A DNA stretch of 64,000 nt from Thermophilibacter mediterraneus (GTDB taxonomy: Bacteria > Actinomycetota > Coriobacteriia > Coriobacteriales > Atopobiaceae): the NCBI RefSeq assembly GCF_900119385.1, contig NZ_FPKO01000009.1:643405-707404 (forward strand), written 5' to 3'. The position numbers and the translations under genes were made by a program. The notes under the pieces were generated by a model. The model was not told the origin of the DNA. It worked only from the letters and a program-made list of their open reading frames with translations, and did not search any database. Below are positions 18,546 through 22,704 of this stretch, piece by piece (positions within the stretch are counted from its first letter, which is position 1; each line of letters begins with the position of its first letter).

Positions 18546-20248
18546 GCTCGGGTAACGGGCGCCCTCCCTCACCGGGACCCTCCGACGGGACGGCCGACCG
18601 CCTCGAGCGCGACCTCGAGCGCCTCGCCGTCCCGCGTCGCTCGCTCTTCGAGGACGGCGGTGACGCCGCGCCCGAGGGGCTTCGCGGCCCGCGTCGCGCC
18701 AACCCGCTCTCGGTGCCGGTCGGGGCGGTCCGGATGGCGTCCGGCCTGATCGCGCTGCTCGTGGCGGCGAGCGCCGGGCGCGTGCTCGCGGACGGGCCCG
18801 GCGCGCTCGCCGGGGTGCTCGTCGCGACGGCGTGCATCCTCGCGGCGTGCCTCGCGATCAGCCTCGCCGCGTGGCGCGCCCGCACGTGGGAGCTCACGAA
18901 CGAGGGCGTGAGCCTTCGCTGGGGGCTGGGCTGGGGTCCGTTCGCCCGGCACAGCCTTACGGTCCCCTATGGCCACATCCACACCGTGTCGATGAGATCG
19001 TCCCTGTTCGAGCGCGTCTTTGGCCTCATGACACTCGACCTCGACACCGGCGCCGCCGCCTCGGAGGGCGACGCCTCCAAAATCGGCGGCCTGCGCGCCG
19101 GCGAGGCCGAGGCCCTTCGCGCTGAGCTCTTCCGCCGACGCGCCGCCTCACTTGCCACGGGCGACGAGGAGGTGTGGCCCGCGGGCGCCCCCTGCCACGA
19201 CGGGCGTCCCATCGCCACCTTCTCGCTCTCGCGACGCGAGCTCCTGCTCGCCGCGGCGTCGCGGATGAGCGCGGCCAGCCAGGCAGTGGCGCTCACCGTC
19301 CTTCTCGCCCGGGGGGTCGAGACGCTCATCGAGTGGGGTCTGCTCGACCTCGTGGGGAGGGGTGACGAGCTGCTGGCGTCCGCCGGCGCGATGCTGGTGC
19401 CGATCGTCGCGGGCTTCGTCGTGCTCGTCCTGGCGGCGGGCGCCGTCGTCTCGTTCGCGGTCAACCTCGTGCGCTATGCCGGGTACCGGGTCGAGCGCTA
19501 TGCGGACCGGGTGGTCGTGGAGCACGGGCTGCTCGCGCGATCGTCGCGCACGCTCGCCGTCGAGCGCGTCCAGTACGTGGTCGTGCGACAGGGGCTCATC
19601 CGACAGCTCATGGGCTATGCGGAGGTGCTCGCGGTCGTGGTGGCGGCCCCCGGAGAGTCGGGCGGCGAGCCGTCGGGCAGCGTGCTGCTCCATCCCTTCG
19701 TGCGTCTGGCGGACGCGGATGCGTTTCTCGCGGAGGTCCTACCGAGCTACGCGGGGGTCGTCGGCGGTGCGAGCCTGAGCGGCCTCCCCCCGGTCGCGCG
19801 CCGGCGCGCCCTCGTCCGCGCCGTGGTCTGGTGGCCGTTCTCGGTCGCGCTCGTCGCGGCCGCGCTCTGGTTCTCCGGCCTCGCCGGCGTGCTCGGCCGG
19901 GCGGGGTGGCTGCTGCGTCCGCTGCTCGCCGTGGGCGTCGTCCTGAGCATCGTCGCGCTGGTGGCGCTCGCTACGGATGCGCTGCGCGCATGGGGGGCCG
20001 CCCGATACGGCCGCTCCGATGGGGCCCTCGTGCTCGTCACCGGTGGCCTCACGCGCCTGACCGTCGTGGCGCCGCGCGCTCGCCTGCAGCACGCGACCGT
20101 CTCTGCCAGCCCCTTTCAGCGTCGTGCGGGGCTGGCGACGCTCACCGTGCGCACGGCCGCCTCGTCCTCCGACGGCCTCAGGATTCGCGACCTTCCGGCC
20201 GACGCTGCCGATGAGCTGCTGGGGTGGTTCCGTCCCCGGCGCCCGTAG
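18542..20248 (+). CDS. Large PH-domain membrane protein (YdbT-like)
   Basis: A 568-residue partner of the preceding gene; start GTG 18542 overlaps its stop (GTGA). It has several pairs of membrane segments, each followed by a bacterial PH domain with the recurring pattern of a basic strand, RVQ or similar and an LTV strand: about residues 110-200 (VSLRWGLG, HIHTVSMRSSL), about 320-400 (VVVEHGLLARSSRTLAVERVQYV) and about 490-565 (LVTGGLTRLTVVAPRARLQHATV). The first about 55 residues are polar and low complexity. Function inferred only by analogy to YdbT. Confidence 0.8.
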   Translation: MSSGNGRPPSPGPSDGTADRLERDLERLAVPRRSLFEDGGDAAPEGLRGPRRANPLSVPVGAVRMASGLIALLVAASAGRVLADGPGALAGVLVATACILAACLAISLAAWRARTWELTNEGVSLRWGLGWGPFARHSLTVPYGHIHTVSMRSSLFERVFGLMTLDLDTGAAASEGDASKIGGLRAGEAEALRAELFRRRAASLATGDEEVWPAGAPCHDGRPIATFSLSRRELLLAAASRMSAASQAVALTVLLARGVETLIEWGLLDLVGRGDELLASAGAMLVPIVAGFVVLVLAAGAVVSFAVNLVRYAGYRVERYADRVVVEHGLLARSSRTLAVERVQYVVVRQGLIRQLMGYAEVLAVVVAAPGESGGEPSGSVLLHPFVRLADADAFLAEVLPSYAGVVGGASLSGLPPVARRRALVRAVVWWPFSVALVAAALWFSGLAGVLGRAGWLLRPLLAVGVVLSIVALVALATDALRAWGAARYGRSDGALVLVTGGLTRLTVVAPRARLQHATVSASPFQRRAGLATLTVRTAASSSDGLRIRDLPADAADELLGWFRPRRP

Positions 20249-20326
20249 CGCGGCGCGGCCCGAAGCGCTCGACGCCGGCCCGCAGAGAAGAACTCGTGGG
20301 CCTGGGTGTCCGCTTTCGAGCGCGGG

Positions 20327-20332
20327 TATACT
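20327..20332 (+). promoter_or_regulatory. Candidate -10 box for dnaX
   Basis: TATACT about 35 bases before the dnaX ATG at 20367. No strong -35 box is visible. It probably drives dnaX, ybaB and recR. Confidence 0.45.
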
Positions 20333-20366
20333 GATGGTTCGTACGTTCCGTCGAGCCGGAGGTCAC

Positions 20367-22704
20367 ATGGAATCGCTCTACACCAAGTACCGCCCGCAGA
20401 CCTTCGAGCAGGTCGTCGGCCAGGCTCACGTGGTCGAGACTCTCAAGCGCGCCGTGCTCGAGGGACGCACCAGCCACGCCTACCTCTTCTGCGGCCCGCG
20501 CGGCACGGGCAAGACGACGATGGCGCGCATCCTGGCCAAGGCCCTCATGTGCGAGCGCGGCCCCGCGGCGCTGCCCGACGGAACCTGCGAGCAGTGCCGG
20601 CTCATCGCCTCCGGAGAGCATCCCGACGTCATCGAGCTCGACGCGGCGTCGCGAACGGGCGTCGACAACGTCCGCGAGGAGATCATCTCGCGCGTGAGCT
20701 ACGCCCCCGCCATGGGGCGCTGCAAGGTGTACATCATCGACGAGGTGCACATGCTCACGACGGCCGCGTTCAACGCGCTGCTCAAGACCCTCGAGGAGCC
20801 GCCCGAGCACGTCGTCTTCATCATGTGCACCACCGACCCGCAGAAGATTCTCGCCACGATTCTCAGCCGCGTCCAGCGCTTCGACTTCCATGCCATCGGA
20901 AACGACGAGATGCAGGCGCACCTTGCCTACGTGTGCCGTCAGGAGGGCTTCACGTATGACGAGGCGGCCCTCGAGCTGATCGTGCGCCATGCCCGCGGCG
21001 GCATGCGCGACGCGCTCACCTCGCTCGAGCAGCTCTCCGTCTTCGGGTCGGGCGGCATCGACCTCGCGTCGGCGACCGACTTCCTCGGCGAGGTGTCGGG
21101 CTCGGTGCTCGGCAAGCTCTCGCGTGCGATGGCGCACCGAGACGTCGGCGCCCTCTTCTCCGAGGTGGGCGCCCTCGCCGATGCGGGTCGCGACCTCCTT
21201 CAGCTCGCCCGAGAGCTCTCTGCGCACGTGCGCGACGTCTACGTCGTGGCGGCGGTCCCGAGCGCCGACGACGTGGTCGCCGCGCGTGGGGACGAGCTCG
21301 AGGCCCTGCGTGCCGAGGCCGCGGCATATGGCTCGGTCGACCGCCTCGCGCGGGTGCTCTCCATCCTCGGCGACGCTTCCGGGGAGATGCGCACGGCCAC
21401 CAACCAGCGTCTCGTCCTCGAGGTTGCCCTCACCAAGATCGCCCGCCCCGCAGCTGACCTCACGCTCGACTCGCTCGCGGAGCGCGTTGCCGACCTCGAG
21501 CGACAGGTGGCCATCCTCGCCGCGCCTCGCCCGGCGGCGGGGCCGGCGGCCGATGCGGACCACGGGCAGGCGCCCGCGCCGATCGAGGTCCCCAGCGTCA
21601 AAAAGACGGCTCCCGAGCCCACGAGACCTCTCTACATCTCGTATGCCGTCTTCTGCTTGAAAAAAAAAAAAAATCTCCATATCCACCATCCCGTCCTCTT
21701 ATCCTACACCACCTTCCATTTCTATCCTCCCTCGTACACTATGCACACACTCACCACACTACATCACAACCATCTGATCACCTACACCGTCCGGGGCGGT
21801 CGCGGCGCCCCGAGGGGGCGGCCACGCCAACGGAAACCTGCAGCGGCTCTGGAAGCAGGTCGTCGACCAGCTCGTGGCGCAGGTCCCGGCCAAGGGCTCT
21901 CTGCTCCTCTCTTCGACGGCGGTCTCCGACGACGGGGAGAGGCTCATGGTGTCGCTTCCCAAGGGCTCGCACTTCGCGGCGCGCATGCTCGAGCGCTCCG
22001 ACGTGCGCGCGAGCGTCGATCCGGTCGTCGCCGCGGCCTTCGGCCCGCGCCAGGTGGTCTACGTCGAGTCGAGCCTGGCAGGCGCGGAGATCGCCCGCGC
22101 GGGCAGGGCGCCCGCCCCGGCGTCGCGGCCTGCCCCGCAGCCGACCACGGCGCCGCGGCCCGCTCAGCAGCCGGCTCCGGCCCCCGCGGCCACGGCCCCG
22201 CAGCCGGCTCCCGCGTCGCCAGCCTACCCGATGCCCTGGGACGAGCCACCCGCCCCCGCCCCGGCCGCTGACGACGTCGTCCCTTACGACGATGCCGACG
22301 CGGCGGTCTATGAGGAGGTCTTCGAGCCCGACGTCCCCCTCGCCGCCGAGCGACCCGCGGCGCCCCGACCTGCCGCGCCCGCCGCGCCGGACCCGGTCCC
22401 GGTGGGCGGTGCGCCCGTCCCCGCCGGGGCGTCTCCCGACGCGGGCGAGGAGGGCGGTGCCTCGCCGCGGGCGATGGGGGAGGGCCCCGGGGGCGGCGTC
22501 GAGCAGCAGGAGCTCACCCCCGAGTTCGCGAGCATCGCCTCCATGCTGGCGGACGCCTTCGGGCAGCCGCTCTCGATGAGCGTCGAGACCGCCGTGTCGA
22601 CGTCTGACGAGGACGCGGCGGAGGAGCTCTCGTATGATGAGGGACCGGAACTCGACGAGGGCTACACCGATGACCCCGTCGACGACGAGGACGACGAGGA
22701 CTAG
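20367..22704 (+). CDS. dnaX: DNA polymerase III gamma/tau subunit, interrupted by an assembly artefact
   Basis: Clamp-loader subunit. The N-terminal part (20367 to about 21620) has YTKYRPQTFEQVVGQ, Walker A GPRGTGKTT (about residues 44-52), the zinc cysteines around CEQC, IIDEVHML (Walker B) and SRVQRFDF. The C-terminal part (about 21790-22704) lies in another frame, with QRLWKQVVDQLVAQVP and SLPKGSHFAARMLERS, then a Pro/Ala-rich, acidic tail ending at the TAG of 22702-22704. The two are separated by about 175 bases that match a sequencing adapter and noise (separate entry). The real gene is probably one open frame of about 720 codons with tau-like length. ATG 20367 follows CCGGAGGTCAC. ybaB and recR follow, the classic dnaX-ybaB-recR order. 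Confidence 0.9.
21613..21789. other. Illumina Nextera adapter read-through assembled into dnaX
   Basis: 21613-21627 matches the end of the Nextera transposase read-2 adapter (CCGAGCCCACGAGAC). 21628-21635 is CTCTCTAC, which is the published i7 index sequence of Nextera N707 in adapter orientation. 21636-21659 matches the 24-nt P7 end (starting ATCTCGTATGCC, ending CTGCTTG). 14 A residues follow at 21660-21673, then about 115 bases made almost only of C, T and A, typical of reads running past the fragment end. On the minus strand this region translates to FFFFQAEDGIRD, a well-known contaminant peptide. The right edge is approximate: GC-rich coding sequence resumes near 21785-21792. Confidence 0.95.

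Follow-up and report, generated by a model that had tools for sequence, protein, structure and literature searches.

The dnaX gene of Thermophilibacter mediterraneus contained a segment that did not resemble dnaX, at positions 21613-21789 of the window, by which we mean the whole stretch of 64,000 nucleotides that was analysed. The question was what this segment is and how it entered the gene. The initial annotation had read it as the Nextera i7 adapter with its parts in order, followed by a run of 14 A, and this reading was confirmed. All 47 bases at 21613-21659 on the plus strand were identical to the i7 adapter, in the read-through orientation, and A14 followed. The i7 transposon-end segment CCGAGCCCACGAGAC (21613-21627) was an exact match, and its first bases may be common to the genome and the adapter. 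CCGAGCCCACGAGAC is complementary to the i7 index primer at its 3' end, which reads GTCTCGTGGGCTCGG. The 8-base i7 index CTCTCTAC (21628-21635), which we take to be Nextera index N707, recurred at three other adapter remnants (scars) of the same genome. The P7 flow-cell end ATCTCGTATGCCGTCTTCTGCTTG (21636-21659) was also exact and was found at no fewer than 120 loci in public genome contigs from unrelated organisms. The run of 14 A (21660-21673) represented read-out beyond the end of the molecule, and A runs followed most P7 ends in unrelated contigs.

The remainder of the segment (21674-21789) was G-poor noise, read once the molecule had ended. The 112 bases at 21674-21785 consisted of 28 A, 50 C, 4 G and 30 T, so that an earlier description of the tail as made of C, T and A only was nearly correct, except for the four G. 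The minimum of G per 110 bases was 3 inside the segment, versus 18 as the lowest value elsewhere in the window. At E 1e-5 the tail matched nothing among phages or plasmids. The start at 21613 was exact, and the right edge at 21789 was good to a few bases. As a control for chance, the P7 pattern was read backwards, and it gave no matches with up to three mismatches in the same genome and none in each of 31 genomes of the genus. The segment was almost certainly an assembly artefact, an adapter and an unreadable read tail placed in dnaX, without biological meaning.

The gene was broken at this site. The 5' part of dnaX (DNA polymerase III gamma/tau) occupied 20367-21612 on the plus strand, starting with the ATG at 20367 (protein MESLYTKYRP), and covered the ATPase, the lid, domain III and the start of a Pro/Ala-rich linker. 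It matched the Pfam families DNA_pol3_delta2 (1.8e-46), DNAX_ATPase_lid (3.7e-11) and DNA_pol3_gamma3 (1.8e-8) and was 79-90% identical to dnaX of 29 genomes of the same genus. The 3' part, in another frame, occupied 21790-22704 on the plus strand and held the end of the linker, the DnaX C-terminal domain, a second Pro/Ala-rich stretch and an acidic tail. From 21790 the dnaX frame read SGAVAAPRGGGHANGNLQRLWKQ, and the counterpart in the relatives was RGGGHTNGNLQRLWKQ. The match of the 3' part to Pfam DnaX_C had an E-value of 0.0036 and 17.7 bits, below the cutoff of 26.2 bits. NGNLQRLWKQVVDQLVA within this part was kept in the relatives, and the start of the C-terminal domain, NGNLQRLWKQ, was common to their dnaX. 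The segment thus lay in the Pro/Ala linker, and the left and right frames were off by one (ORFs 20124-22271 and 21874-22704). The split of dnaX into two frames, as first noted, was borne out by this offset and by the Pfam matches on either side. The frame of 503 amino acids on the minus strand (20178-21689 in the ORF list, start MVDMEIFFFFQAEDGIRDVERSRGLG) had been called spurious, in agreement with a Pfam search that gave nothing for it up to E 0.1.

We looked at the junction itself. In a tagmented library, a mosaic end of 19 bases lies between genome and adapter. It was absent at 21594-21612, so that the site did not have the form of ordinary tagmentation read-through. In the whole genome, the mosaic end was absent at both i7 sites with an exact P7 end, and at each of the four remaining i7 scars it was damaged; at the two i5 scars it was intact in one (C6:32569) and damaged in the other. 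For comparison, at least 124 exact P7 sites at the public genome-contig loci were classed by an ungapped rule as 50 Nextera-type, 66 TruSeq-type and 8 other, where one of the 8 (L019) was by eye a Nextera site whose mosaic end was intact and followed by the loss of one base. Among the matches listed, the mosaic end was intact at 40 of the 50 Nextera-type sites, damaged at 5 and absent at 5. In viral contigs, where the whole i7 arrangement was present at 120 loci or more, it was intact at 120 of the 125 Nextera-type sites among the matches listed; 2 of the 125 were classed as absent, and one of these (L263) had by eye a mosaic end minus one base. A count of 0 intact mosaic ends at the 6 i7 scars would set loose-pattern scars against exact-pattern sites, and the fair count was 0 of 2. 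This gave P 0.05 against 40 of 50 and P 0.003 against 120 of 125.

At both exact sites the genome joined the adapter precisely where the i7 index primer has its 3' end. Annealing of this primer to native CCGAGCCC would be the simplest cause of the absent mosaic end. This 8-mer occurred 457 times in the genome on both strands, versus 372 times for the reversed pattern. The second exact site was at a contig end (C6:76-122), where a polyphosphate kinase-like gene, named ppk by eye (C6:1-122), ran into adapter of the same library. The frame at this scar read GYVEVPVAPEP, with codons ending in VAPEP. The ppk tails of the relatives contained CCGAGCC in 24 of 29 genomes and CCGAGCCC in 19 of 29, counted anywhere in the tail, and in 12 of these 19 the offset of CCGAGCCC differed by no more than 40 nt from that at the scar (a hand count on unaligned tails). 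In one relative (G016), CCCGAGCCCAAG followed shortly past GYVEV. In the dnaX linkers CCGAGCC was found in 7 of 23 relatives and CCGAGCCC in 1 of 23. The relatives are non-independent samples in all these counts. Neither CCGAGCC nor CCGAGCCC was present in the linkers of G018, G006 and G016, the three relatives that matched best. The initial annotation had placed the join where the genome resembles the adapter. This could be made specific as mispriming of the i7 index primer on CCGAGCCC, which on these sequence comparisons appeared well supported for the ppk scar and weakly supported at dnaX itself. After the left flank AAGACGGCTC, a native CCGAGCC-like site would be expected under mispriming.

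Two other origins were weighed against mispriming. A short insert in dnaX might simply have been read through into the adapter, with the mosaic end lost by an error of sequencing or assembly. In favour of this reading, the mosaic end was damaged at the four other i7 scars, most Nextera-type sites of other assemblies were ordinary read-through with an intact mosaic end, and the dnaX linker of the three best relatives was without CCGAGCC. However, no remnant of the mosaic end was left at 21613, the break fell exactly at the primer 3' end and in frame with a plausible APEP, and the ppk scar had the same form. We regarded read-through without mispriming as possible but somewhat doubtful. The other origin was that the segment is real DNA, with adapter sequence carried by a mobile element or a construct. 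Its sole point in favour was the location inside a contig of 1.27 Mb. This was opposed by a library-specific index at four scars, by the A run with its noise tail, by the frame break in dnaX and by the tail that resembled neither phage nor plasmid. In addition, the genome had four matches to the N-terminal part of dnaX, and among the three listed the two other than dnaX itself were partial, with 32-38% identity. The probability of real DNA was therefore judged to be negligible.

The whole genome (2.37 Mb in 9 contigs) carried six i7-type and two i5-type scars, the window site included. The i7-type scars were the window site (C1:665017), the ppk scar, C6:268977, C3:202492-202556, C6:535977-536032 and C6:139961, the last being the weakest with 79% identity and E 1.3e-4. 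The i5-type scars were C6:32569 and C6:518181. The latter (E 1.8e-6 as i5 type) was counted as a scar, and other weak matches with E 0.47 or worse were left out. The index CTCTCTAC was present at four of the six i7-type scars and garbled at the other two. Since seven further adapter scars were present, three of them with the same index, we concluded that one library contaminated the assembly. The adapter belongs to the library, and the organism does not carry it. The P5 end was absent from the genome at up to three mismatches. A 15/15 match to CCGAGCCCACGAGAC at C1:813338-813352 had no surrounding adapter and was taken as native rather than as a scar. Within the genus (31 genomes), the P7 end occurred only in this genome and in G022, which had the index CGTACTAG. 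In G022 (G022:C3:204728) the i7 adapter adjoined a hairpin, as judged by eye, and the first two bases of the mosaic end differed.

The further scars outside the window were mostly error-laden, and several lay in very GC-rich or fold-back sequence. On both sides of C6:139961 the flank repeated nearby sequence in inverted form, exactly over 16 and 26 nt, as if gap filling had drawn on chimeric fold-back reads. A fold-back was also considered at the window site and rejected. Only imperfect inverted repeats were found there, 72-93% complementary and with arms at least 170 nt apart. The window site was in this respect unlike C6:139961 and C6:535977, where fold-backs occur.

We compared the site with adapter remnants elsewhere. 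Nextera i7 read-through in other assemblies showed the same adapter, P7 end, A run and noise, whereas the window site lay inside its 1.27-Mb contig and had no mosaic end. Among the matches listed, the P7 end lay close to the end of its contig, at a distance of up to about 300 bases, at 115 of the 120 genome-contig loci. It was internal at 5 of the 120 among the matches listed, four by the ends of the locus and one (L065) from the contig range; these were records of isolates, whose contigs measured 0.23-7.2 Mb. The five with a P7 end far from contig ends, as at the window site, were Klenkia terrae IHUMI-26.3 (L051), Mycolicibacterium houstonense (L059), Streptomyces specialis (L065), Streptomyces mexicanus Marseille-Q0842 (L067) and Paenibacillus sp. 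GM2 (L115). The S. specialis and K. terrae sites were also without a mosaic end. The indexes of these isolates differed from that of the window; the adapter of M. houstonense was TruSeq-type, and Paenibacillus sp. GM2 had no recognisable index. Unlike the window site, K. terrae, M. houstonense and Paenibacillus sp. GM2 had N nearby. An Escherichia coli plasmid record (LC763831.1) was identical to 21613-21673 at 61 of 61 bases, the index and A14 included, although the organism was unrelated and the noise tail was unmatched. The same 61 bases gave no match in complete E. coli genomes in near mode.

The segment might not simply interrupt the gene, and we examined how much dnaX remained around it. 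Between DLERQ and NLQR, about 53 codons (about 38 + 15, by hand count) were plausible dnaX. The linkers of the relatives had 74-123 codons with a median of 98, as measured in 23 of the 29; the other 6 were dropped since the right anchor was not in frame. A further genome (G030) was outside the 29 relatives, being without a full dnaX match. The linker of the window was shorter than all 23, and codons are therefore probably missing and a gap fill is likely. The comparison of dnaX with its relatives, as envisaged in the initial annotation, thus made missing sequence probable. Going by these lengths, about 20-70 codons of dnaX were probably lost at the site, with adapter read in their place. It is also conceivable that dnaX is complete and that no genomic bases were lost. 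The sequence on either side of the segment is good dnaX, and linker length varies, so that a short one may exist. Against the linker lengths of the 23 measurable relatives, we considered a complete dnaX unlikely.

The 3' half of dnaX was a break region in the genus and was hard to assemble. In 15 of the 29 relatives a contig ended within 1 kb past the match to the dnaX N-terminal part, versus 0.97 expected, where the 1-kb limit was picked after the distances were known and the expectation came from rounded contig counts. Two of these 15 contig ends were inside the first linker and one was just before it. The other 12 contigs crossed the linker and ended in or past the C-terminal domain, which places the break region in the 3' half without singling out the first linker.

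These observations fit a chain from mispriming through an untrimmed read to gap closing, which we infer to be fairly likely. During index PCR, the i7 primer would be extended after annealing in the genome at a site like CCGAGCCC. The product would be an adapter fused straight to the genome, without a mosaic end. A read of this product would pass the index and the P7 end, leave the molecule in the A run and enter noise. Trimming by the mosaic end would fail to recognise the read, and a gap-closing or scaffolding step might then use it to span GC-rich sequence of low coverage. In a published pipeline (PMC6182551), gaps were closed by GapCloser, for which the 2 x 251 data were either trimmed or left untrimmed. 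Going by strain names, the group that published it looks to be behind two of the isolates with internal P7 ends. It is a plausible guess that the assembly of the window was closed by such a pipeline.

Since trimming by the mosaic end would miss such reads, scars without a mosaic end or with a damaged one would mostly survive. Trimming blindness did not account for every scar, as C6:32569 had an intact mosaic end. There is about an even chance that a class of trimming-blind scars exists, formed by i7 primer mispriming on CCGAGCCC, often at Pro-Glu-Pro codons in GC-rich genomes, and leaving false frames QAEDGIRD...SRGLG in public proteins. A literature search for QAEDGIRD gave no match. In the excerpts available from the literature on Nextera or adapter contamination, mispriming, and GenBank or public databases, no account of such a class was recognised, which does not prove its absence.

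The finding is ordinary, and the mosaic-end observation is a small, testable point on contamination screening. If mispriming is true, screening by the mosaic end only would miss scars, and the index and P7 end need to be screened too. In this assembly dnaX, the ppk end and the other scar sites are not trustworthy as sequence. Proteins that span scars, such as the plus-strand frame of 715 amino acids and the 503-residue minus-strand frame, should be dropped, and none should be read across 21613-21789 on either strand.

Two relatives had unusual dnaX regions of their own. In one (G014:C10), the dnaX frame passed from the linker directly to the acidic tail without the anchor of the C-terminal domain, which is either a real loss or an assembly error. 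In a relative assembled as one contig (G007:C1:2127210-2130147), two copies of the N-terminal part of dnaX lay head to head on either side of the same linker. This arrangement is perhaps an assembly fold-back too.
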